Part shown: piece by piece, positions 5,327 through 41,693 of the stretch | Position numbering within the stretch: position 1 is the first letter of the stretch | How the letters are laid out: each line of letters starts with the position of its first letter | Notes under the pieces: generated by a model | Database searches by the model: none | Told to the model about the DNA's origin: nothing | What the model saw: the letters and a program-made list of their open reading frames with translations, nothing else | Origin: Planoprotostelium fungivorum | Taxonomy: Eukaryota > Evosea > Variosea > Cavosteliida > Cavosteliaceae | Reading direction: 5' to 3' | DNA: 59,767 nucleotides | NCBI GenBank assembly: GCA_003024175.1 | Contig: MDYQ01000175.1 | Location: forward strand, 1-59,767 | Made by a program: the position numbers and the translations under genes

Positions 5327-8300
5327 TCATTCCTTTGATGGAGCATCTAGTGGGCTGAATGGGTGTGAATTCTCATCTGTCTCTCCAGTTATCTGAGGTG
5401 AACTGGTTGGTGATAGGTGTCTTGGTGAATCAGGAGCAATCTCAATTGGAGGGGTCTCAAAACTGGAAACTTGACTGTCTTTGTCTGATGCAGGGACATC
5501 CAATGTAGAAGCCTCTGCTGACATTGAAACGTCCTGTTCGATATCATTCTTCCTGTTCCTCCTCTTCTTTGTGTAATAGATGGTCCCCAGTATCACTGCC
5601 ACAGCAGCCACAAGGACAAATGCCACAGAGGCAGCCACAACATACACTCCTTGTCCTGAGCTCAGTACACCAAGTTGAGGAAATAGCCTATTTGGATAAG
5701 TCGATTTCCACCCACTGTCTGACTCACGATTTGGCGCTCGTCTGCTTGACATCAATGGGCTGAATGGAGAAGACGGTGAATTCAGTCAAATGATGGCACC
5801 GGCAGTACGCTGAGGATTGATCCGTGTAGTCTAGATAACAAGAATCATCACTGTTCCATCCCTCCACTCGACTGCCTCGGTACGAGCAGGTGATGTATGG
5901 GTCGTTTGCTTCAGATGTGTTCAGTGGAAAATTGAAGACGAAGCCCTTGGCAACGTTCTTGTAGACCCCTGGACTGATAGACAGAGACACAACACCGTGA
6001 GCTGATGAGGATTCAGTTTGAATGACCGGACGTGGGATGTTCTCACTTGTAAAGTTGTCTGTAGTCTCTGCACCGATGCTGTTGAGGTCGACTGGCCATG
6101 CAAGCAGCTGAATGTTGAGGCAATCGTTGTTGGAGACGTTTGCATTTGTGAGCACGTCAGAAGGTAGATCGGCTGTCATTCCAGATTCAGCCCTCAGAGT
6201 GCCAGCGGCAGAGTTGGGATTTCTTGTGGCCGACAGCATATTGAAGCTCTGTGTGGAATAACTGGCGGGCGTTTCACCACACACTCGATTTCTGACAGAA
6301 ATGTCATGAAGTCGATTGACTGCGTGCTCAACTGCGCTGACCACCTCCTCCGAGTCAGTCTCTCTATCAGATGATTGCTTCACCTCTTGATCAGACACAC
6401 CGTCGTTCTCTGATCGTTTCCTGTTCTTTCTTGTACTCAAGAGAGGTGCTAACAATGCATCAAAGGCTAAGGCGGCCGTTTTACCGGTAGAAGTCGTGAT
6501 GGGGTCCGTCGATTGTGACTTTGCCGCCAGCTCGATGCCACCACTGATGAATTGGGCCGCGTTGAGGCGACCTGAATTCTGCTGACTGGAAGAGTCTGAG
6601 CCAACCACGGTGAAGATGGTGTTGATGCGCGACGACAGTTGTGTATTGTCGATGGATGTGACATTCTCGGTGGTGGCCGTGTTGACCAAAAGACTGATGA
6701 GATTCTGTCGAGTGATCAGCACGATGTGATGATGTTCATCCTCTCTCACGTCTTTGATGCGTCCTGCTTCTTCGTTCGTGACGTTACTGTTGGTGATGAA
6801 ATTGGCCAGAGCGTTGACAGTTGCTGAAGCCTGCTCCACGGTCTGGTTGACGGGTGATGTTTGGTTCAGGAGAGAAGAGACGATAGACGTGGCAGAAACG
6901 TTAGACTCGATGGGATTGGACAGCTGAAGGGTATAGTTCGTGCTGGCCTGAGCTCCCCACACGTTGGACACCTGTCACGTCAGCATGATATCGCCATGAT
7001 GATGAGATTACACACCACGACGGTCAATAAGATGCTCTTTCCTCCAAAGAAATTGTCCCTGAAATACAGAGAGGTATTACCACTGAGAGAAGTCTTGATT
7101 CCGTCAGCTCCATCGATCGATGTAAACTCACCGCAACGGTTGCGTCGTCTGCCAAGTAAGAGAAGGAATAAGACAGAGGGAGGTCCTGAACGGGTGCCAC
7201 CCATCCGTCCGTAGAGATGTGAAAGGTGGTCGTCAACTGATATCCCTGAGGTGGCACGACGTTGATGCTTCCGCCGTAGGGAGGGGATGCAACCCTTTTC
7301 ATTTCAATTCTCGTTTTTCTTCGTAGACTCACTTGACGATGGTGGTGGTGTAGCCAGGTGTGCTCCCCGGTATTGCGACCGCACATTGTACATTGAACTG
7401 TACCACGGCACCGTAAGATAATGTGTTGGCCTTGAGTAGCAGAATGTGACGATTGATCTCCGTTAGATTGTTCTTCTGTATGAGATCCATGTCAGAAGTG
7501 ATCCAGTTGCATCTGAGCGTGTAACCATCGATAGTGGCTCCATCAGAAGTGGCGGCGGCCACTTGTAACGACAGTCTGTCCGTGGGGTTGAAGTAATCCT
7601 TGGTTAAGGGCAAGATGGTGAGAACTGGTGGCTGTCCCGCGACCATGGTGACCGATACGGAGGCGGTGGAAGATAATTTTCCGACGCTGGTCACGGTGAC
7701 GGTGAAGGTGTAGAGACCTGGGTTGAGGCTTCCGGATGATACGGTGATGGAGGGAAAACTGTCGAACGATAGAGGAGAACCAGAGGCGTCGAGGCAGGCG
7801 GAACTGGAGGACGAGCAGCTCCACGAGTACGACAGAGGAGACAGGCTGTCTGGATCGTAACTGCGGGAGGCGTTGAATCTCAGAGCGTCAGATAGAGATC
7901 GAGTGTAAGCCGAGTTTCCGTTGATGATGGCCACGGGAGGCTCACTGCGAACAACCACGTCGACCTGTCATTCAACGTGAGTGATACGATCGACCTTCAT
8001 CTCCTCTCACCAAACTGCTCGTTTTTCCCACAGACCAAGTGGCCAATACCACGTACGTCAGCCTCGTTCCGGCCTGAAGAGTGTTGGCAGGCACGCTCCA
8101 GCTCTTCTTGTTGGACAGAATGGTTTTCGGATCAGATTGTAACCACCACGACCAAGAGAAAGTGTCGTCTCCACACAGTGCAACAGAAGGATCTAACAGA
8201 GCGGCGAGGGGTGTGGCGTAGCGGTGGAGAGTGTAGATGGTAGAATTACCATAGTTGATGGTGACCGTGGGGGAGGGCAGAGTGAGCAGATACGAGGCAG

Positions 8301-11300
8301 AGATGACTCCAAGATAAGCACGAACGGTGTAAGAAGCTCCAGGAGCGGTAAAACGCGAGGGAATCTGTACCCTTCGACCGGAGGAAGATTTGAGGGCGCT
8401 GGCCAAGTTTTCATCGTCAGAAGTCCAGAGGATCTGAGTGGATCAGTTGTGAAGAGAAGAGATGTGTGTCACCTGTGCACTGGGATAAGGATTTACGGTG
8501 GTATTGGACCACGTGAGATACAATGTGATGGACTGACAGGCATACAGCGCGTCAGATTGGATGCTTACATCAGCAACGGTGGCCTTTGTGTTGGTTGTGG
8601 TGCTGGTAGTGCTGCTTGATGTTGTGGGAGACACAGTGCTTGAGGTGGTGGAGGAGCTGCTAGTGGTAGAGGTGGTACTGGAGGATGTTGATGAACTGAT
8701 ACTCGACGTGCTCGATGTAGAGCTAGTGGTAGTGGGTGCCACAGTGCTCGATGTAGAGCTAGTGGTAGTGGGTGCCACAGTGCTCGATGTACTGCTCGAT
8801 GTAGTACTTGATGTCGTGGGTGCTACAGTGCTTGATGTAGTGCTCGATGTTGTGGGAGACACAGTGCTCGATGTGGTACTCGATGTAGTACTTGATGTTG
8901 TGGGAGACACAGTGCTTGATGAGGTACTTGATGTGCTGCTCGATGTTGTGGGAGCCTCAGTGCTCGATGTTGTGCTTGATGTTGTGCTTGATGTTGTGCT
9001 TGATGTTGTGCTTGATGTTGTGCTCGATGTTGTGCTCGATGTTGTGGGAGCCACAGTACTAGATGTAGTGCTTGATGATGCAGTTGATGAGCTCGAGCTC
9101 GATGTGGTGCTAGATGTGGTGCTAGATGTGGTGCTAGATGTGGTGCTAGATGTGGTGCTAGATGTGGTATCCAATTGAGTAGTAGTCTGAGCCTCGGTTG
9201 TTGTCTCAGCCTCCGTGGTGGTATACGCTTCTGTGGTTGTCTCGGCCTCCGTGGTGGTGTACACTTCTGTGGTCGTCTCAGCCTCTGTGGTTGTATACGC
9301 CTCAGTGGTCGTCTGTGGCTCTGTAGTTGTCTGGGCTTCGGTTGATGTGTACGCTTCTGTGGTTGTCCCATCCTCTGTAGTCGTGTACGCTTCGGTGGTT
9401 GTCTCAGCCTCTGTAGTTGTGTACGCTTCGGTGGTCGTCTCAGCCTCTGTGGTTGTAAATGCCTCAGTGGTGGTCTGAGCCTCTGTAGTTGTCTGGGCTT
9501 CGGTCGATGTGTATGCCTCGGTGGTTGTCTGTGCCTCTGTTGTTGTGTATGCCTCGGTAGTTGTCTGTGCCTCTGTAGTTGTATATGCCTCAGTGGTCGT
9601 CTGTGCCTCCGTGGTAGTGTACGCCTCAGTCGTCGTTTGAACTTCCGTTGTCGTGAGAAACGTGAGACCGAAACACCGAGTGTTCATCCAGGTGGGCATG
9701 AGTGTCTGCAGCTTGAGAGAGCAAGTCATCAGGGCCGGCGGTTGATATGAATTCATGTAATCGCTGAAAGCGTTGGAGTCCATGAACCATTCTCTCAGCG
9801 ATGTTGCACCACTCAGATCAGGCATCGCACCGTTGACGCTGACTCCAAAGAGTCGGATGACTTGCACGGCCGCGTTGAATTTGACAGGGAAGCCTGCGAC
9901 GGACGTATTGGACATCTCGACCGTTCCTCTTGATTGAATCGATGGAGCAAGGGAGTTGGTGCTTCCACCTGTACGGGATGAGAGGTTTTATTTTATATTT
10001 TATATTTTATTTTATATGAGATCTTCACCTCGCATGGTGATGTCGACACCGTCAATGTCACGACCGTTGGGGTTGTTGAAGTTTGTGTTTGAAATGTTAC
10101 AGACTTGACAGCCTCCAATGGAGACGGGACTGTCATTTAGGAAACTGCTGGCACCTACCACTGCAACTCCACCGCGTGAAACCAAACTGGAGCCAATGGT
10201 ACCATTCGAATTGTTCGTAAAGGTGGAGTTGTAGACGTAGATCGGACCATCCGAATCGACTCCGGCGGCACCGTAGAAGGCTGAACGCTTCAGATATCGT
10301 ATGGATGGACGGTCTCACCTATGTTATCTCTGATGTCACTGCTGATCACGTAAAGTCCATTGACTCCAACTCGAATGGCTGCACCCCATCCGTCTGTGGT
10401 TGTTGATGGAGGTCTGAGAGATGGACCTTGGTTGGTGTTGCCCTGGAACAGACTGGTGTTGACGTACAAGAAGGGTCCCGTGTGGTAGATCGCTCCACCG
10501 TTGGTGGCTGCGTTCCTGAGAGAATGAGACGAGAGGGCGGGAGAGGTCGACTCACTGTATGAACTTGCTCTGGCTGACGGCAAGGCTACCGGTGGAGTTG
10601 ATGGCACCTCCAGAATAAGAAGCTGCGGGAGTGAGATGATGCGTTATCCATCGACGTCACCTGCATTGTTCTGAAAATCACAACCGATCACTTTTACGCT
10701 TGAATTCGAGCTGGAGAGATTGATAACACCTGCATTCGTGGCTTTGTTTCGGTAGAACTGCGAGAAATTCGTCAGTTTGAGGAGCGAGCACACGGGTCAC
10801 CTGACTGTTCACGAAAGAGCCCGTAGATCCATTGAGGAAATTGAACAAGGAACCACCGGAGATGGCATTGTCCGTCACAGATAATCCACTGACGAACAGC
10901 GCTCCCTCCACGGAGGCAAGAGCGGCGCTGTACGTGTTATTGCTGAAGGATCCGCCGATGATGTTGACCCTGGCGGTCGAGGTGACACTCAAGCTCTGGA
11001 AGGCATTCCGAGTCCAAGTGGTGCCGATGAAGGTGATGTTAGAGCCCGCTTCGGCCGTGATGGTGGTGGGGGGAAGGGTGGTATCGTAATTGCTGAAGAT
11101 GCAATTGACAAAAGTCACGTTCCAACCTATGAAAGTGAAGATGCAGCTGGAAAAAAAACTTCCACTGTTGCAGATGACGTTGAGATTTCCACCCGTGGTA
11201 GATTTCATCTGGATGGGTGTACTACAACCGGGGACTTGTGTGTTGATGATCAGACTGGCCACCGGACAATTGGAATCGATGTTGAGAGCAGCTGTGTCGA

Positions 11301-13810
11301 TTCAGATGAGAATCGAGTGATTCGGCTCACTCTGGCTGAAATTCGAATTGCTGGTCTCCCAACTCTGGAAGCAAGGTCCTCTGTTTTATTATCAGTCTCT
11401 TCGTGTGTGCAAGGTGGAGTCACTCACTGGCAGGCGGTGATGTCGAACGGCTGTGTGGTGTAGCAAGGAGTGGTGAACACCTGAGTCAAGGGAATCGTGT
11501 TGTTGCTGAACCACGATGCGCCACTGTCTCCTACGTTATTGATGAAGCTCGATTGCGTCAGAGTCGTGAAGCCAATACAGCGGAAACCACCACCGGAAAA
11601 TCTTGCCACGTTGTTGACGAAATTGACGAGGGTGAGTGTACCATTGCCTGAACGGATGAGTCGATCGATCGTATCGTTCGATGATTCACCTGCCATGGAT
11701 AGGCCACCACCGTTTCTGGCTGAATTGGACGTGAAATTTACGTTCTTGAAGGTAGAAGAGGAAGCGGTGGAATAAGTGTAGATAGCACCTGACGACAGTT
11801 GATATTCATTCCTCCCTCACGATCTTCACCTCCATCACCGGAAGGAGATTGAACGACATTGTTGAAGAAAGTACTGTCTTGAACGTTCGCATAAGGAGAA
11901 TAGATGGCACCACCACCTTCTAATGGTCAGGAGAATCAACGCGATCGCACTCACTATTCGTGCTTGTGTTGTTTCCAAATTGAGATCGAATAGCTTGCAC
12001 GAAACTGAGAGCGCAGACTGCGCCTGGACTCGCTCAGTCAAGGTGAGGGGACGTCACTCACCACCACCCATAGCTGCACCGTTAACGTTGACAGAGTTAT
12101 TCATCAAGTTGGCGTCCTGCAGGTAGACGTAATACGAATAGATGGCACCACCTCCAGCGGTAGCGGTGTTGGACTGGAAGGTACTCGATTGAGACTGCGT
12201 GGAGTTGTTCGTCATGATGGCACCACCGTACTTTGCGTTGTTGCCAAAGAAGGTATCTGCAATGGTCAGTGTGAATCGATGCATCGTTTGTGACTCACTG
12301 TTGAAACTCGTCAGATTGAGACCTGCGATAGCACCTCCGTTTCCAAGGATAGCGGAATTGGATTGGAACATGTTGCCCATGAAGGTACCGAAGGCAGAGG
12401 AGGATACGGAGCCTCCATTGTTCTGAGCCGTGTTCCTGTCTCCATCAGATGATCATCATCATCAGGCGATACACACCCAAAGAAGGTGCAAGCGTCCACC
12501 ATGATGACTGTGCTGGCTTCCGGCGTCGTTGATATTGCTCCTCCACTTCCACCGGCGGTGTTCTTGTTAAACGTGACCCTGTGGAATTCCATGTTTTTAC
12601 CGCTGACAGCTCCGGCGTTGGAGGTGGCCGAATTGTTGAAAAAAGTGGAGTCTATGATGTATACGATGTTGTCGCCACCCACGGCTCCACCTTCACCGCC
12701 GACGTTGCCAGAGAAGGTGGACGATTGGACGTTGACGCTGTAGCCGGCCCAGACGACTCCACCACGGGCAGGTGTTCCCGTGGAGGTGGCCGCGTTTCTC
12801 TCGAATGAGCATCCGATGATGGTGGCGTTGATCGATGATGTGATGGCGACACCTCTGTTGGGGGCGGTGTTGCTGTTCTGGGAGGTGGTGAGGGGGGATG
12901 CGATAGAGGATGACTCACAAAGTTACAATTGGTGGCTTGAATGATGGAACCGCTGAGGATGGTGCCAGTGATGGATCGGAATCGAGAGCCGGTGGACATC
13001 ACATTCGGACCCGATGCGACGGTGCCAGAGACGCCAGTGAAGTTCGAGTTGGAGATGATGATCCATGATGTAGCTGACAAGAGAGGGGATGAAGTTGTAG
13101 TATAGGTCAGATTGAAGTTGGAATTGTTGATGGAGGTGTTCTTGGATGATACTCCCGTCAAGCCCCAGAAATTTGAGTTGTAGATCTGCATCCAACCGTT
13201 GGGGGAGCTGAGAGATGAAGGCAGGGAGGATGGTGGTGAAGTAAAGAGGGTACTTCCAATCACGGTCACATCTGCCGTCGTCAGCGTGAAACGAGTCGAC
13301 GAGAATCGATCGACTCACTGACTCCTGGTGCATTTACGGAAGAAGAATTGAAGTTAGAGTTTATGATGGTCACGGCCCCCACCATATTGTAATTCCAAGC
13401 AGTTGAAACACTATTTCCATTCTGTATGAGCACCTGAAACGTCAATCGAGGGTGACGATCTGACCGATACACACCAATCCAAAACCAGTAAAGGTGTATG
13501 AGCTAGCAGTCACTTGTCCACTGCCTTGGAAAGTGATGTTCAAGGTCTGGCCGGCACTGCCGGATAGGGTCTCGTTCGCACCTACCAGGACGGAATCGAT
13601 GATGACAGTCACGGGATTTGTGGAACAACCGGCGCTGGCCGAACCGAAGCCTGACGAAGAGATGAGTCACCTCCATCTTCTTTAGAACACACCCGCTGCG
13701 AGACCGCCACTACTGGATGTTGTGGAGGTGCACACAGATGAGGCAAGTAGGGGCAACGCTAATAATACACAGAGCAAGAACTGCATCTGAAGCTGTGCGT
13801 TGGACCGCAT
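5327..13810 (-). CDS. Very large secreted/cell-surface receptor: beta-helix repeats, mucin-like stalk, REJ, GPS, one TM
   Basis: The start at 13810 gives a signal peptide (MRSNAQLQMQFLLCVLLALP). Many small exons then encode Asn/Ser/Gly-rich repeats of the type GSxFSNN, typical of right-handed beta-helix (pectin-lyase-like) surface proteins (about 13800-9990). Next come a Thr/Ser/Glu-rich mucin-like stretch (9660-8600), then a REJ-like region (8440-7020, with RFNASRSYDPDS). A GPS motif follows at 5780-5900, with paired Cys, a Trp and the HL-T cleavage-type sequence CRCHHLTEF. One hydrophobic span (VAASVAFVLVAAVAVILGTI) and a tail of about 90 Ser/Asp-rich residues end the protein. Splices worked out include 5688-5727, 6972-7015 and 7094-7131 (38-44 nt). 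REJ plus GPS is the polycystin/adhesion-GPCR signature, but there is a single span. Two fused gene models are possible; the only signal peptide is at the far end. Confidence 0.8.
8600..9175 (-). repeat. Ser/Thr minisatellite (SSTTSST / SSTVAPTT units)
   Basis: Short tandem units encode SSTTSST and SSTVAPTTSS repeats on the minus strand inside the large surface-protein gene. The copies are near-perfect, so length is likely to vary between strains. The products would be a heavily O-glycosylated, extended stalk. Confidence 0.85.
9176..9660 (-). repeat. TTTEA minisatellite (18/36-bp units)
   Basis: Tandem units encode alternating YTTTEA and QTTTEA/ETTTEA blocks on the minus strand. The array is in frame with the flanking exons and is followed by the Ser/Thr array. 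Confidence 0.9.
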
Positions 13811-32357: not shown

Positions 32358-32931
32358 TTAGAGGCAGAGGTCCCTCTCAACTTCTAAAGCGGAGGGGGAG
32401 GGTGCAAGAACTTTATGCGGATGAGTCGTGCGTCTGCGTTTGTGATCGGTGGCTGGCTGGGAGCCTCCTCGATCATCATCATCATCGTCTCTGGTCCGTC
32501 TGATTTTCGTCTCTGCGATGACTGGTTGAGGGACTGCTGGGTCATCATCTTCCCTCTTCGACACGATCGTCTTATCTTCATGCTGGATGATGTTGGTCGT
32601 CGACTCGAACCAGGAAGAATCGAGGTCTTGTGTTCTCAGAGGAAGTCCTACCTCTATTTTCGTCAGCTCGATTCTCGCTGCGTCAGCTCTCACCATTAGA
32701 ATTTTCGTGGTGCTCGATTGTGATCGAGAGAGAGTCTCCTCCCTCGATCATGATGCTTGCTGTTGTTTGTTAACAGAATTGAAATTCTTGCAGCCCAAAA
32801 TGTTGACGACTCCGTAATGTCGACGACTGATCGACTCACTCGTAGCCTACTCTCACCGTGATGGACATGGAGAAACTCCCTCTGCAGAGACGAGTATAGA
32901 GTCCTCTGTTCTTCCAACGATTGGAGGACAT
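32358..32931 (-). CDS. Hypothetical protein with acidic/basic C-terminus
   Basis: Not recognised. A plausible three-exon model starts at 32931 (MSSNRWKNRGLYTRL) or, equally possible, at 32868 (MSITVRVGYE). It passes GGDSLSITIEHHENSN and EVGLPLRTQDLDSSWFEST and ends LEVERDLCL. The C-terminal third has a run of Asp followed by basic clusters (KRRRTTHPHK) that could be a nuclear signal. The frame joins were chosen to avoid stops and are uncertain. It is convergent with SNIP1, 54 bases apart. Confidence 0.45.
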
Positions 32932-33341
32932 GTCATTTGTAGTGTGACAGCAATGTATACTTCACCCTCGCATAGACGATAATTTTGAAATCTCTTGTAC
33001 CTTGACAGAGGAGAAATCATTCAAAGAGTGGGAAATAAATCGGGGCGTTGAATGGTTCGAAATAATAACGAACTTATTTGTTTTCGTAGATCCTTCTTTG
33101 AGGCTTCTCACCTATGTCAAAGAGGCAGCGCTAACGCTGTGGAGAGGAGTATCCTATCGAGAAGGGTGGAACTGTCTTCCACTTGCATCGTGATCGTCCG
33201 TGGAGCTGTTGAGTGGTTCTTTATCGAAGCCTCCCCAGACGTGCTTCACTTGTGAACACCTGCAAAACGGTTGGCGCTTTTGGGTCACAAAGGTTTTGGG
33301 TCAAATGATCCAAATGTTACCTAAATGTCAATTTCATTGGA
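32932..33341. other. Intergenic stretch without recognised content
   Basis: Only short chance-like open frames are present. It presumably holds the promoter of the rightward gene at 33412 and that of the leftward gene at 32358-32931. Confidence 0.5.
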
Positions 33342-33411
33342 ATGAAACCGCGTCCAAGGAGCTGGCTCGCCGCCCGGCCGTCCGGTGAACAACGAAAAAT
33401 CAACGTCGGGA

Positions 33412-34930
33412 TGAGTCAATCACATGATGATCCTCCGAAGACGGGCACTATCCCTCGTGAATTAAATGGAGACAATATCGCGAATATTCAGCCGGTGAAG
33501 AAGAAGGTACTGGCCAAGACGCACATATCCTGTCTCCATCCCAAATGTGCAGTTCGTCGAAGGGTTGGGTCTCACAGAGGACATGCGTCTGATATCTATG
33601 GTCACATCTACTTACTTACGGGGAATGGCACGATCCAGGCCTTCCGAGCGCTGTCCAAAGAAGATAGACAGAATTTCGTAGATCAATGGGAGAGTGAAGG
33701 GCTGTTGTCACTGAAAGAAGTTGCTTCAAAGGTGTTTCTTCTCTTTGACTCCATCTTCAAATCACCCACACCCGGAACAGAAAGACGGAGAACTATTGGA
33801 GGAATTTAGAACCACCGTTCAACCACCGTCTTCGGAGGAAATCACCACTCATCACTCTCATGTGACAGAGGTGGAAGATCCAACTTGACTTACGATCTGA
33901 TGATCCAAACAGGATTTATCGATCAGGAACATCATACGACATATCGAAACGATGGGGAGACACGAAATCGACCGCACTGATTTTCTCGAGCTCATCAGCG
34001 CTCTTCTGTCTGCCTCACGCGATGGAGAGTCCATCAGCCCAGCAGATTTCTCATGGAAGAAGGAATGTCTATATAATGGAGGAACCGCAGTCTGGGACCC
34101 AGGAGATGATCTGAAGATTCTCGTCACGAGCGACATCACCCAACGCCCAAAGTATAATGGAGTCATCAACGTCAGCGGGAAGTTTAAACACATCGATGAC
34201 CCACCACTACTGAAACAGAGCTACAGGCTGGGTCGTCCCAGCTCAGGTTAGAGATTCTCTCTCCTCGAGTCACCACTGATGGAGGTGCGCAGGAGTCCTG
34301 AGGTGCAACAGATACACACTCGAAGACGACAAGTTGTGCTCCGTCTGGGCCTTCTACGATCAGACTCGAGCTTCACCTCTCAAACGAAGAAGAGTCTCAC
34401 CGATGTCTCTACTCTCGATGGAAGAAGACTCATTCAACTCATCATGTTGGCTTGATCCATCACCAATCGATTTCCTCATGCCCTCATTTAGAGAAACAAT
34501 CTCTCCACATCTTGAATCAGATGATCTACAGAGCATCCTCTCTTTAATAACAGGGCCCGATTCACCCATGCACTCACTCAGCGATACATATTCCTCCAAT
34601 ATTGAATCAGACATCTTACAAGCTCGGAGCACAGCAATTCTCTCTCCAACCATCATCAACTCGATTGACAAGGACGACCTCGTAGAGGATGGAGTTTTAT
34701 CTTACAAGGGCTCGAGTCATACGAAATGCACGGCAGAGAAGGAGGGAGACACGTATCGATGCAAAGTCACCGTCTTGGGAGGCAAGTTGTCCGATTCAAC
34801 TTGTGTTTGGGTGGAAGAAGGGAGTAGAAGAGAAGAGTTGGTCACCAATCGTATCGTCCACGATGACTGTTGTACCTTCTATAGGAGATTGGAAGGTAGA
34901 GTGAAGGTGATGGATGGGTGTAGACATTGA
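33412..34930 (+). CDS. Uncharacterised nuclear-type protein with CxxHPxC module (new family, member 1)
   Basis: Not a known family to me. The start may be 33412 (MSQSHDDPPKTG) or 33342 in frame. The N-terminal module reads CLHPKCAVRRRVG, then IYGHIYLLTGNG, then AFRALSKEDRQNF and WESEGLLSLKEVASK. A diverged copy is encoded at 38692-39141. Introns of 49 nt (33732-33780), 42 nt (33871-33912) and about 44 nt (34249-34292) link it to a beta-rich domain (KKECLYNGGTAVWDPGDD, VTSDITQRPKYNGVINVSG, then CSVWAFYDQ). A basic cluster PLKRRRV follows, and then a Ser-rich acidic region and a final Cys-containing segment. The spaced Cys/His suggests metal binding and the basic cluster suggests nuclear entry; a transcription-regulator role is only a guess. 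Confidence 0.65.
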
Positions 34931-35590
34931 AGGTTGATGATGAGACAGGTGACGGTGATGGATGGTGTGAATCGTATCTGGAGGGGAGTATTGAAGGGGG
35001 AAGAATCACACAAGAGAAAGGAAATGGGATGATCTCAAGATGACCTCATTGGTCCGCGTGGAGGATGTAGACAAAGTCATCGGCAGAGTGCACGACTCTT
35101 ATTTGCAAATGTTTCATAAAGTGCGCTCGAAGATAAAGAGGACCAGACATAGACCGTTTCATCTTTTTTCATCGTCACTACAGTGACGGCGTAGGCCAGA
35201 TGATTCCATCGCGATACCGTAACGAAACAGAACTACCCCGAAACTCACTCTGATGGATTCAGAAGGATGCCACTGACACAATCACCGATCATCTGATCGT
35301 CGTAAGTGTGCATCTCTTGGAGTTCAAATCGCACTCGTCACCGTCTCACTCGCGGAGAACATCCTCCCCTCTCATGCTGCTCTCTAACCGGAAGAACGGA
35401 TCAATTGGTCTGTAGACGGAAGAAGATTCAATTTCACACGAGTTCCACGATATGTAGGGGAATTCACCACCCACCGTGCTGACAGGGACAACGTAAAACA
35501 CCATGAAAACTGGCTGAAACAAAACCACAGCCACGGTAGAGCTCTACTCAGAATCAAATACGCACGAACACCAACACCGCCACACATAGA
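34931..35590. other. Intergenic stretch with unassigned short frames
   Basis: A 48-codon rightward frame from 35041 (MTSLVRVEDVDKVIGRVHD) and a leftward 62-codon frame ending at 35346 (with FMVFYVVPVSTVGGEF) both look protein-like. Neither can be extended into a clean exon chain. One may be a small real gene; I cannot tell which. Confidence 0.35.
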
Positions 35591-38362
35591 ATGTCTCAGG
35601 TGAGGGGGACGATGGGTTCGGACGACAAAGATTGACGCGGATGATAGTCAAACGAACAACCAAAGACACCATTACTCGTACTGCCCGCAGTCACGGCCAT
35701 CAATCTGGGTGCGAAGGCTCTAAGCGCCGTCACTGGATCGAGTGCCGAAGAGATCAAAGAGAGAGCAGGTTCCCTCTTGAGAGGAGAAGAGACGTCGTCC
35801 GGACTCAAGGTGAGTCACACGAGCATGCATTGTGATCCTCTTCTTACGTAAGAGATAGAATCAGATCGACACGGCTACCAAGTTGATTCGTCACCTCCAG
35901 AGTGAGATCATCGAGAGAGGAGGAGAGTCTCTCGGTATGGCCGCAGGTACATCCTCCATCCTCCTCCATACCTTCCATTGACTCGTTCATCAGAGATCCT
36001 CGAAGACGATGTGATGCATGCCACACGCCCATCCCTCGATGCCGAGTACGTTTTAGAGAGACAACTCGCCACCCTCTTGAACCAGAGGATCGCCGGTGTG
36101 TATCTCCCTCCCTCCTCTAAGAGGATGCATTACGTTGCTGATCGTCTCGATCAGATACCGAACTGGCCGAGCAATACAAATTGACCGCCCAGACCCAAGC
36201 ACAACACTTCAACAAGGTCATCGTAGAGTTGAACGAGAACCTCATGAAAGAACACCAAGTCAAGGAAGAACAAGACATCGACGCCGAGAGAATGAGACTC
36301 CTCGTGAGTACCCATCCTCTATATCTCATCTTCCATCGTCGATCATCATATGATCTTCCATCTTCCATCATCATCTGATGTAGAATGCAGGCCGCCGAGA
36401 CAAGAGAGAGATTAGACAAACTGAAGGTTGAATTAGACCACGCAGAAGAGAAGAGAATGATCGTCCTGAGAGAAGAGCGCGTACAATTCGAAGAGAAGAA
36501 CAGAAGGATCCAGAGCGAATTCGAGGCCGCCACCGAATTCTGCAGGGACCTCAGGAGAAAACTGCAGGCCGAGCAGGAGAACATCAAGAGGCTCGTCGAG
36601 TTGGGAGATGCTTCCGCCCACGAGGTCGAAGCTCTACAGATCGTGAGTCCACCACCGACACGATCATCATCATCATCACGATGGAGATGCTGACGACATC
36701 CATACAGACCAACACCGCCAACACCACGAAGCTGCAGGACCTGTCCACCGAGTTGCAGAAGACCAGACACGACATCGCCAGACTCAACCAGCTTCGACAG
36801 AAGGAATCTGAAGAGTCGAAGCAGGAGATCACCAAGCTGAGAGAGCAAGTCCTCATCGTGGAAGACAAGATCACCATCATTGAAGAGAGAGGAGCAAAGA
36901 TCAAGGCCGTACAGCTCGAGAAGGTGAGACGGAGGGCGTGCGGTTCTGACGCGTTGTAGATCAACAAGGAGAGGGAAGAAGTACTGAGAGAGTACGAAGA
37001 GAAGATGAGACACTTGAAGGAAGAGAACGAAGCCGAAGTGGCAAAGAACTTGTCCGAGTACGAGATTCAAGTGAGTTATCACTCATGACGATGACCTCCT
37101 CATCACCTTCATGACTATCCACTTACCTCCCGACAGGTCACCCAGATCGACGAATTGAAGCAGAAAGACACGGCCGACGTAGAGAAAGAACAGAAGAAGG
37201 CTGCCGGTGACTTGAAGAAGCTCGAAAACACTCTCGCCCACGAGCTTCAGAGAATCCAAGCCAAAATCCTCCAAGTCCAAAACGAGACGAGCAGCTCTGC
37301 CCGTCTGGCCATGATCATCAGAGACCAGATCGCCAGCGAGAAGTCCACTCGAATGGGATTAGAAGGAAGGTTGGCTGGCGTCCGCTCGGAGCTGTCCGTC
37401 TTGGAAGAGAAGAAGGCAGGACTGCAGCAGCAGCTGAAGCAATTCGAAAGGGATCTCAGCAAGGAGAAGGGTGAAGTTGAAATTGGGATTTCGAACGCTG
37501 AAGGAGAGACAGACTACTCTGCCAAACAGTTGGAAGCGGCGAGACAGTCCATGAAGTCCTCTTACTCGAACCAGAGGAGAGTTCTCACCACCACATACGA
37601 GAACGAGATCAAGAAGATCGAAGAGGAGCTCAAGATTCAGACTCGCCTGGCCAACGAGGCCAGAAAGAGATACGAAGACACTTCGAGAAATCTGGAGGAC
37701 AGACAGAGAAGTTTGGAGGGAGAGATGAAGGAGGTACAGCAGCGTAAGAAGGCCGCCGACGAGAAGTTGAGAAAGGCCGAAGCCGCCCTGACCGAAGTCC
37801 AAGACAATCTCGCTCAACTCAACAAGCAGGTGAGACACCCCCTCCATCATCATCATCCGACACCGACAACATGAACTGACGACCTCTATAGGAAGCCACC
37901 CAGAGCTCCCTCTTAGACGAACAGAGATCCAAGAACCGCACCCTCTCCTCCCAACTCGCCGTCCAACAAGAGAGAACATCCATCGCCAGCAACAAGGACA
38001 GAGACACCGTCCGCGGCTTAGAAGTCGAGAAGAACAGCCAGTACGTCTTCATAGACGAGATCAGGAGAGGCATCACTGAAGAAGAAGAGAAGACAAAGAA
38101 GATGCAAGAGGAGAAGAGAAGAGGAGAAGAGCTGGCTACAGCTCAATTGGAAGAGTTGAAGAAGGAGATCGAAGAGGTGAAGAGACGAGCGAGGGAGGAC
38201 AGAGAGAAGGGCATCGAATTAGAGAAGCAAGTGCAGAGGGAGATGAAGGAGAACAGACTGTTGAAGGAGGACATCGTGGAGGCACAGGAGACGAGGGAGA
38301 AGAGCTTCTCGGAGAAGAAGGAAGTGCACAACGTGGAGGTCTCTGTCGTGCAGAGAAATTAA
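35591..38362 (+). CDS. Long coiled-coil protein
   Basis: Exon 1 (MSQ) joins through a 48-nt intron to SNEQPKDTPLLVLPAVTAIN, giving a short head domain (GAKALSAVTGSSAEEIKER). From about residue 80 to the end (about 770 residues) it is almost continuous heptad-rich coiled coil, for example EERVQFEEKNRRIQSEFEA, QKKAAGDLKKLENTLAHEL and EELKKEIEEVKRRARED. At least eight short introns interrupt it. There is no motor, membrane span or known end domain, so it could be a cytoskeletal or centrosomal filament or a tether. The rod and head resemble intermediate-filament layout only in a general way. The end at 38362 has TAA inside AATTAAAG. Confidence 0.85.
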
Positions 38363-38691
38363 AGTCGTTATGATATTACTACGTGACGTTCGTGAAACAT
38401 TCACGGAAAGATGGTGCGATAAAGGATGGGCTGAAACAGACATTGTGACGCGCACAGAGCTGGGGACGCAGAAGCTTTGCATCTTAAATCATAGCGAGAA
38501 TGAGCAATATGGAGTGGATGTGTGACATTGTTTATAAAGTTCATATTGGGCTATCACCATTGAAGAATAAAGCAGACTGTGGCTGGTGAGACAGAATAGC
38601 CAAAGTTCACATTACCTCAACAGATCAACTTCAGAGAGCCGTCCAACTGTCTCGTTGATAGAGGCATTGAGAAGAGAGACATTAATGCCTC
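38363..38691. other. Intergenic stretch between convergent genes
   Basis: Nothing beyond 3' untranslated sequence is apparent; it contains one AATAAAG near 38567. Confidence 0.5.
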
Positions 38692-39141
38692 TTCGTTCCC
38701 AAGTCCCCCATCAATCTGACGAGATTCTGAAACTGAGAATCGATGTAAGATCGGTAATCCTCCGGAGTGTCGCCTCTATTCAAGATAAATCAGATCATGT
38801 CTTAACGATTCGTGCAATAAAACGTCTCACCCAAACGTCTCCTGAATATACTCCAGTGCAGTGCTGGGTGATTCAGGGCTGATCTCAAAACTATTGAGTG
38901 GAGATGTTGACTGGATTACCTCTGCGCTCTTGATTAGGAGATGTCCCTTCTCCTCCCATCTCCGTTTCAGCTTCTCCTTGTCCTCTTGTGCCAGAGCTTG
39001 CCATGCAGATTTTCCCGTTACGGCCTCACACAGATGAAGCAGATGCCTGAATATGGTAGTAGAGGGTGCGATGTGAGGTAGACCTGTTTTCTCCCGAACA
39101 GAGCAATTTGGGTGACGGCACTGTCTTTTACTATTGGTCAT
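38692..39141 (-). CDS. Uncharacterised CxxHPxC protein (new family, member 2)
   Basis: The ATG at 39141 opens MTNSKRQCRHPNCSVREKTG, then IFRHLLHLCEAVTGKSAW, then ALAQEDKEKLKRRWEEKGH and LLIKSAEVIQS. Position by position this matches the N-terminal module of the gene at 33412. Shared features are C.HP.C.VR, the HL.L/HI.L helix, G, AL..ED and the WE..G.L..K ending. A 51-nt intron (about 38790-38840) removes an early stop and adds GDTPEDYRSYIDSQFQNLV to a stop at 38692. At about 130 residues it is the module plus a short tail, without the beta-rich domain of its relative. Confidence 0.6.
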
Positions 39142-39253
39142 GAGCTTGTGGGAGTTCCTTTGATTGTGTCAGGAAGTCTTCTTTCTTTCTCATGTAGACA
39201 CACTGAGGAGGATGGCTCGATTGAAATCTCCCACAAAAAGCCACCACCGCGTG

Positions 39254-39356
39254 GAGCCATCCTTAAAATGATACGTTGCCAGGGCAGCTCCCGAGCCATC
39301 CTCCTTCGGAGCCACCCTTAATAAAATGCGTTGGCAGGGCGGCCCCCGAGCCATCC
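39254..39356. repeat. Direct repeat of ~50 bp upstream of the gene at 39410
   Basis: Two adjacent copies (39254-39308 and 39309-39356) share gagcca-ccctta, aaaatg, cgttg-cagggc and cccgagccatcc, with a few differences. They lie just before the start codon at 39410 and may be promoter elements or a small tandem duplication. Confidence 0.75.
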
Positions 39357-39409
39357 CACGTTTTCTCCTTTGTGAAGTTCATTTTCCAGACAACAAGACA
39401 CCGACCACC

Positions 39410-39830
39410 ATGAACCCCGTACAGGAGCAACAATTCATCGCCAACATCATGCAGGCGAAGAACGGCCTCAGAGGTCTCGATAGAGTGAAAAGAGGAGCAC
39501 TCAAGGCCAACTCCAAACGTGAAGCCGTCGGCATTCTTCTGACATTTGTGGAGGAGGCTCGAAGGCTTCCCATGGATGACTTTCATCGGCAACTCGTAGT
39601 GCAGGTGATCATCTTCTTTCCGCGTGTGTCGCTGATGAGATCTGCAGATCGAGGACAATGCCAATCGCATGGCGAGGTGCACTAATAGTGATAGTCTGAC
39701 GAGGGGCTATGCAAGGATCCAAGAGTTATTGGAAGACACCGATTTCAAGTTGGGTGCCTTGTGGGGCATGTACCTCAGTCAGATCAACCGTGCCGACTTG
39801 AATATACAATTCAGAGGACTGGCTTTGTGA
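39410..39830 (+). CDS. Hypothetical protein, ~123 residues
   Basis: Two exons join at a 43-nt intron (39604-39646). The protein starts MNPVQEQQFIANIMQAKNG and ends LNIQFRGLAL. It is mostly helical with no membrane span or signal peptide. The frame, splice signals and a clean stop support a real gene, but I do not recognise the family. Confidence 0.55.
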
Positions 39831-39937
39831 TAGAGGTCACATCTTGGGCCCGACACGCGTGGAATGATTAGTAGATAAACAAAGTATAGAAAAATGTCGG
39901 TGTTGGTATGTGATTTTAATGTTGGCATTCGACAGGT

Positions 39938-41693
39938 TTAAAGTTTGGCGCGGGTGATTTCGTTCCACAGAGAGAAGGTGTGACCCTTGTCAGGCTCCAC
40001 TATTCCCTTGGCAATTTCCATGTATCTATCATCCTCTATCAATCAAATGGTCATAGAGGTAGCATACCTGGGCACGATGTTGTCGTAGAAGGTGTCTTGC
40101 ATGTGTAACCAGGGAACGCTGTCGTTCATGAGCTCTGACCACGCCTTCTGTTGCATCTGCGTTCGTTTGTCATCATCGACTCGCGTCTCATATGATCACT
40201 ATAGCATGATGATCGTGATGACTCACCTTGTGGATCTCCGCTGCACTCAACATCTCAGTTCTCTTAGCCATCCACATCGGGGTGAAGAATGTCTCCATCT
40301 TGTCCTGCTGTGACATGGCAGAACTGATCATCATCATCAGTCACGCTCACACATCGGCCCTTTCATCATCTTCATCGTACTCACTCTTTCGCGTTCTGCT
40401 CGATCTTCAGTCGAAGTAGAAGGATAGAGAGGTTCTCTCACCTCGATGTTGGTCATGCCGAGGACGATGGAGCTCAGGAGAGGATTGCCAGCGGAGTTGA
40501 AGTGTTGAAAAATCTTCTCGTTGAGAGAAGGATTACCTGCCACATCAACGTAGACCCACTTTCCTTCCGTCTTGACCTGTCTCACATTTAGACATGATCA
40601 ACATCGTGATGATCTTTGTGATCACCTTGTTCAACTCTTCGTAAGTAAAGACTTGATCGTACAGTCCCAGCTTCTTGGTGAACTCTACGTTGCGAGCGGA
40701 CGTCAGACCGATGACCTGATCGATCGTCAGATCACCATCATCTCATTTCCGATCATGGTGACGTGATCACCTGGCGTCTGTTATTCGTGGCCTCATTTCT
40801 CTTCTTTGCGACGTAAGCGAAGCAGTAGGCTGTCTTTGACGATGCCGACGTCACCAAGATGTTGTCTGCCCCCTTGTACTCTTTTCTCTCTCAGTCTCAC
40901 ACACATGGTGTGATGAGCAGTGTGACACTCACTCTCATAGTTGAGCCAGTCTTCCATCCAGAAGCTCGTCCAGAACAGAGGACGGTACAGAGCTGTCTCT
41001 GGCTCTTTGTCTTGACGGTACATGGGGTCAGCTGAGCAACGAGTGATCGTGTTGTATGGCACAAACTCTGAAACGAGTTCAGACGTTGTTGACATACGAT
41101 GATGGTGGAGAGAAGATCGTGGGAGAACATACCAGAAGGAAGATGAGGGCGAGGGACAAAGAGGCCGGTCCTGCTGACGCGACCGATGGGCACCATCATG
41201 TATCTGGACATGCTGAAGTATCCGTATACCTTCTCTCCCACTCTGTCTCTCGTCAGTCATCGACGAACATCGTCTTCTCACTTGACGCTGGGATGGCTGG
41301 AGGCCTCGACGGTGCCGAATCCCCACACAGGAAGAACCCTAAATCAATGAGATCTTTAGAATGCACATGTTCTTCACTCACGCGTGGGTCTTTGGAGACG
41401 TCTCTTTTGTTTGAGGTGCTGGGTGGAACTCGAAGTACCTAAAGAACATGTTAATTTAGGTACTTCGAGTTCCACCCAGCACTCGATTACTGTCTCCGAA
41501 TGACTCACAAGAAACCGGGCATCTCACCCAGCTGTCCATAGGTGATGTTGTTTGTGCTGAAGGCAAAAGAAGACACGCGGATCACGACGTGATCTTTGGG
41601 TGGGACGGCAGGCAGACTCGATTGGACAACGACTGGCTTCTGTAGGCCGCCGGTACCTCTTTCGACGCAGAGAGTGATGTTATCGAAGCTCAT
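39938..41693 (-). CDS. DUF2855-family protein, copy A
   Basis: The exons give the DUF2855 layout: SSFAFSTNNITYGQLGE, GFL and YFEFHPAP, VWGFGTVEASSHP, VYGYFSMSRYMMV, EFVPYNTITRC, YRPLFWTSFWMEDWL, VTSASSKTAYCFAYVAKK, VIGLTSARNVEFTKKLG, WVYVDVAGNPSLNEKIF and an end WNEITRAKL. The family is bacterial and fungal with no assigned reaction; the fold looks like a medium-chain dehydrogenase-type Rossmann protein (SSASSKTA and GLTS elements). About ten short introns. It is one of a tandem pair with 41893-43584; the central exons and introns of the two are nearly identical while the ends differ. One intron contains a perfect hairpin. Confidence 0.75.
41416..41482. repeat. Perfect 28-bp inverted repeat across an intron/exon boundary
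   Basis: Arms at 41416-41443 and 41455-41482 are exact reverse complements with an 11-base spacer. The left arm is the start of a coding exon of DUF2855 copy A; the right arm lies in the preceding intron (transcript order: right arm first). The 3' splice site lies at the stem. Copy B has no counterpart. Confidence 0.97.

Follow-up and report, generated by a model that had tools for sequence, protein, structure and literature searches.

We find that two genes about 4 kb apart in Planoprotostelium fungivorum, an amoebozoan of the class Variosea, share a compact Cys/His module for which we found no relative outside this genome. The family is real and unnamed; what the first-pass annotation called a family consists of two genes seen in one species. 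The window, that is the whole stretch of DNA analysed, is the entire contig C119 (59,767 bases) of an assembly of 36.86 Mb in 471 contigs. Our preferred reading, to which we give a probability of about 0.35, is that the genes form a lineage-restricted, zinc-stabilised pair, a long nuclear activator and a short competitor or partner, whose module would bind DNA or a nuclear partner. The features of the two genes and of their surroundings are given in Table 1.

Table 1. Features of the window, with positions counted from its first base
Feature	Position	Strand	Content	Basis
Large gene, exon 1	33411..33731, ATG 33411	+	107 aa; module is residues 30-107	Homology to small gene
Module, large gene	33498-33731	+	CLHPKCAVRRRVG, H, HIYLL, AL..ED, WES.G.L..K	
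Large gene, proposed exon 2	33781..33870	+		Putative splices
Large gene, proposed exon 3	33913..34246	+		Putative splices
Large gene, proposed last exon	34293..34930	+	NLS-like PLKRRRV, acidic Ser-rich stretch, Cys-containing C-terminus	
Coiled-coil gene between large and small genes	35600..38362, extent approximate	+		Open frames
Small gene, exon 2	38775-38682, stop 38682-38684	-	C-terminal tail	
Small gene, intron	38776..38830	-	55 nt, GTGAGACG...AATAG	Exon join reproduces C-terminal part of public protein
Small gene, exon 1	39141-38831, from core ATG 39141	-	Holds module	
Module, small gene	38914..39135	-	CRHPNCSVREKTG, H, FRHLLHL, AL..ED, WEEKG.L..K	
Adaptin exon	Within window			Pfam scan of ORFs, E 8e-33
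ATG22-like transporter exon	Within window			Pfam scan of ORFs, E 4e-24
LIM protein exon	Within window			Pfam scan of ORFs, E 3e-26

The two modules align over 73 residues with 23 identities (32%) and 41 positive positions (E = 2e-11; BLASTP), in keeping with the shared stretch of about 75 residues that the first-pass annotation had described near these positions. When the large exon is searched against the genome (36.86 Mb) in six frames, the small module is recovered at E = 2.3e-6. The local alignment score of the pair, 97, is reached by none of 5,000 shuffles (mean 22.9, maximum 50) and by none of 5,000 shuffles that keep C, H and P in place (maximum 77). The zinc half and the helical half were also taken alone, and in each case 0 of 5,000 shuffles reach the score. 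Because the shuffle tests were passed, by each half separately as well as by the whole, we consider the modules homologous rather than alike by chance in their Cys/His pattern. For the tails that follow the modules, homology is not supported (shuffle fraction 0.11 for the spliced and 0.24 for the read-through tail; 2,000 shuffles). Of the 79 columns in the alignment, 21 hold the same residue in both modules: C-x-H-P-x-C-x-V-R, G, H, I, H, L, A, AL, ED, WE, G, L and K. Two Cys and two His outside CxHP keep fixed or near-fixed spacing in both modules (C-x4-C-x8/9-H-x9-H), with His at +9, +12 and +19 after the second Cys in the large module and at +10, +20 and +23 in the small one. Judged by conservation, these two Cys and two invariant His are probably the best candidates for zinc ligands. 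The zinc half is basic in both modules (pI 10.3 and 10.9; whole modules 9.8 and 9.7) and the helical half is mixed (pI 5.1 and 8.1).

Two significant copies of the module were found in the 36.9-Mb genome by single-sequence searches, which a very diverged third copy could escape, and the same two loci were returned with the small gene, a hand-joined long sequence or the module alone as query. The large exon also matched a third locus, C316:164752, which was rejected as not significant (E = 0.12, one internal stop). The pattern CxHPxC-x-[V/I/M]-x occurs at 6 places in the genome, of which two are the modules and the other four do not, by eye, continue into a module. Protein-database searches, which scored 33, 6,426 and 15 candidates and reach relatives sharing exact five-residue words, found no relative outside this genome across about 57-180 and 247-786 residues, that is to either side of 181-246 by the tool's stated length rule; their sole return was the small gene's own record, PROFUN_12580. 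Short patterns matched 46 stretches of viral contigs and 38 of genome contigs, and tblastn confirmed none of them; given that the contig collections searched are viral and prokaryotic, this says little about other amoebae. For either gene, Pfam, NCBIfam and PHROGs gave nothing significant (best E = 0.14; Pfam was scanned at E <= 10, with filters that drop most matches above about 0.1), and PDB sequences gave no significant match to the module. In the literature, no description of either gene stands among the matches listed for P. fungivorum, for amoebozoan WRKY proteins or for lineage-specific amoebozoan transcription factors, and the gene name PROFUN_12580 returned nothing.

From the two module sequences, AlphaFold2 predicts for the large module (33501-33731) a compact fold with a mean pLDDT of 82.8 and a pTM of 0.70 (five models, 73-83), in the order E8-11 H17-22 E25-28 H29-39 H45-50 H53-66, that is beta-alpha-beta-alpha-alpha-alpha. 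The module elements are nearly alike in the model of the small protein, which lacks the short helix 45-50; this model is not independent, because it was run with the same partner sequence. Neither Foldseek nor VIA-align returned a significant PDB fold match to the predicted module, and the first-pass view of a Cys/His module without a named domain agrees with all of these sequence and fold searches. An Ig-like match (T-cell receptor, E = 0.74) for the beta-rich part came from a wrongly joined large-gene sequence and was discarded, the corrected model having none at E <= 10.

The same data would also fit a zinc-stabilised protein-protein or structural module, nuclear or cytoplasmic, that has no role in DNA binding or transcription, and we hold this to be a real possibility. 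Roughly half of the invariant residues (A, AL, ED, WE, G, L, K) belong to the helical half, which could serve as a partner surface, the tail of the small protein is predicted at low confidence to form two helices, and the module has no significant match to any DNA-binding family. Against it stand the strong basicity of the zinc half in each module and, provided that the last frame of the large gene is correct, the NLS-like cluster encoded there.

A search across known families gave no clear match to a zinc-finger or transposon-derived DNA-binding family, the nearest being a sub-threshold, WRKY-like Cys knuckle. The WRKY-GCM1 superfamily has been linked to transposases. Against the PDB, module profile A3 has a single match at E <= 10, to WRKY2 (6j4f) over the Cys knuckle, and profile A1 has six, with WRKY2 first; at E = 0.034 and 0.041, respectively, both are non-significant. 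With a 9-sequence WRKY profile the large module scores 9.5 bits, above all of the shuffles reported (804 of 1,000; best 5.7), whereas the 6.1 bits of the small module are reached by 2 of 893 reported shuffles. Genuine WRKY genes do occur in the genome (6 places above the cut-off), one of them with a degenerate second domain. These genes (C281, C198; L019, L020, L022, L023) are two-domain, and the second domain of the C198 gene reads WQPLRMS in place of WRKYGQK and keeps C..C and HxH; C198 and C426 have identical scores and are perhaps one locus assembled twice. WRKY domains bind zinc through C-x4-5-C-x22-23-H-x-H and fold as an antiparallel sheet of four to five strands. The module resembles WRKY and WRKY-GCM1 zinc domains in its C-x4-C followed by x-V and basic residues, but a WRKYGQK-like strand is absent in or just upstream of both copies, H-x-H is absent from both at WRKY spacing although C-x4-C is present, and the predicted fold is alpha-rich. 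No WRKY row appears for either gene in the Pfam scans, under the E <= 10 limit and filters given above, and a WRKY family search of the genome lists neither module. Because the WRKYGQK strand and the HxH pair are missing we do not file the module as WRKY. An origin as a WRKY-GCM1-type zinc domain that has degenerated strongly, losing the WRKYGQK strand and rebuilding its C-terminal half, we judge improbable.

C2H2 zinc fingers follow C-x2-4-C-x12-H-x3-5-H, and those with CxHPxC bring the module to mind in their C-x4-C enclosing HP and their later His pair. In the module, however, 8-9 residues separate the second Cys from the His and 9 separate that His from the next invariant one, as against about 12 and 3-5 in the fingers; neither copy has classical C2H2 spacing, and the Pfam scans hold no C2H2 row. 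The start of the helix W/F-x-AL-x-x-E-D-K/R likewise recalls the W-x-x-L ... E-K helix of the HMG box, which has nothing matching the zinc half of the module; a genome search for HMG_box (PF00505) gave 12 places, neither gene among them, and there is no such row in the Pfam scans. For zf-BED (PF02892) and FLYWCH (PF04500), the genome has 4 and 2 places, respectively, all below cut-off and none at these genes. The ALOG domain, too, combines a zinc-type motif with helices in a protein specific to one lineage. PMC3537659 describes it as a helical DNA-binding domain with an inserted zinc ribbon and the motifs HxxxC and CxC; these two motifs are absent from both modules.

The two exons of the small gene join to 134 residues, which are the C-terminal 134 of the 161-residue PROFUN_12580, and the stop lies 10 bases past 38692, where the first-pass annotation had ended it. 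The public model starts with 27 further residues, encoded at 39299-39237 and 39156-39142 on the minus strand, plus one split codon; this first exon is probably a mis-annotation, with ATG 39141 the likelier start. The public first exon partly overlaps a 49-nt local direct repeat (39253-39301 / 39308-39356).

In the large gene, exon 1 is clear and the remainder must be spliced. The module frame is open over 33309-33809 (166 codons) and the last frame over 34280-34930 (216 codons). The simplest stop-free model that we found uses introns 33732-33780, 33871-33912 and 34247-34292 and predicts 460 residues, and enumeration with GT-AG introns of 24-130 nt and fixed upstream exons gives 12 one-intron and 223 two-intron alternative routes into the last frame. 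The beta-rich extra domain reported by the first-pass annotation lies in a stretch that spans putative splice sites, and we do not regard it as established. The basic nuclear-type cluster that the first-pass annotation noted is present, as PLKRRRV (residues 277-283 of the 460-residue model), if the last frame is used. The following 76 residues (284-359) have a net charge of -12, 18 Ser and 25 bulky hydrophobics; an equally acidic-hydrophobic stretch of 76 residues occurs in 5 of the 54 window ORFs of at least 150 aa, the large gene's own included. Both the cluster and the acidic stretch depend on the proposed splices.

The large gene seems unannotated in the sizes searched, because the protein searches returned the small gene only, and it may be a decaying gene. 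Its proposed donors (GTGTTTCT, GTGGAAGA and GTTAGAGA) look weaker than that of the small gene. Codon scores of -0.24 (exon 1), -0.13, 0.00 and -0.23 (last frame, old exon limits) for the large gene and -0.17 for the small gene frame are background-like (random windows: median -0.31, 95% point 0.05), and only in the third of the scored segments (0.00) does the gene frame outscore the other five. Codon usage marks neither gene as coding, with a training set that included ORFs without firm family support. The length over which the module frame and the last frame stay open argues against decay, and we think it unlikely that the large member is a pseudogene and the small one alone is functional.

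As the first-pass annotation had it, the pair is inverted around a coiled-coil gene, with the large gene and the coiled coil (roughly 35.6-38.36 kb) on the plus strand and the small gene on the minus strand. Within the coiled-coil gene, the Pfam matches of 37095-37871 all stayed below cut-off and were mostly to coiled-coil families. The adaptin, ATG22-like and LIM exons in the scanned window ORFs are ordinary eukaryotic genes; no tRNA genes were found in the window, and Rfam gave no match there. One or more apparent large cell-surface genes lie at 5327-13314 on the minus strand, in ORFs with a long Thr/Ser repeat, and the ORF at 5724-6974 has a GPS motif below cut-off (Pfam, E = 0.0012), as in adhesion-type receptors. 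At 2-2427 on the minus strand stand two almost identical ORF copies (2-934 and 841-2427), gag-like by eye, which meet at a single N (847) and are perhaps a retroelement fragment doubled by scaffolding.

That the two genes descend from an unrecognised mobile element, the DNA-binding part of which the host retained, is very unlikely: the gag-like copies at the left end of the contig and the transposon origin of several eukaryotic DNA-binding domains, as set out in PMC3537659, would favour it, but the longer, scanned copy has no Pfam gag match, just two copies of the module were found and the small one is intron-bearing, inverted repeats of at least 15 nt are absent from 32700-40300, no match was confirmed in viral or prokaryotic contigs, and transposase families are absent from the 8 window ORFs that were Pfam-scanned besides the two genes.

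We therefore return to the reading of a zinc-stabilised nuclear pair, and propose the following mechanism. Two old paralogues, found so far only in Planoprotostelium, would carry a compact domain of about 70 residues. One zinc ion is most likely bound by its basic first half (C-x4-C ... H ... H), against which the second half would pack as a short bundle of helices, and the target of the domain is most likely DNA or a partner in the nucleus. The large protein would have in addition an NLS-like cluster and a stretch that is acidic and rich in serine and hydrophobic residues, and because of these additions is most likely a nuclear activator, whereas the small protein, having module and tail only, most likely competes with or partners it. 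Both roles are suggested by architecture. The first-pass interpretation is partly borne out. Its regulator family is an inference, one with which the basicity of the zinc half, the acidic stretch and the NLS-like cluster would agree. The stricter version, in which the fold is new, binds DNA in a zinc-dependent manner and is restricted to variosean amoebae, with a long activator and a short single-module antagonist about 4 kb apart, we consider unlikely.

Orphan families are common in thinly sampled protists and are to be expected where few relatives have been sequenced, so that the interest of one more is modest. At present, the pair is an orphan family of two genes whose predicted fold can be tested. 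If the module indeed binds DNA, is stabilised by zinc and has a new fold, it would represent another lineage-specific invention of a transcription factor, in this case in Variosea, a group with few sequenced genomes.
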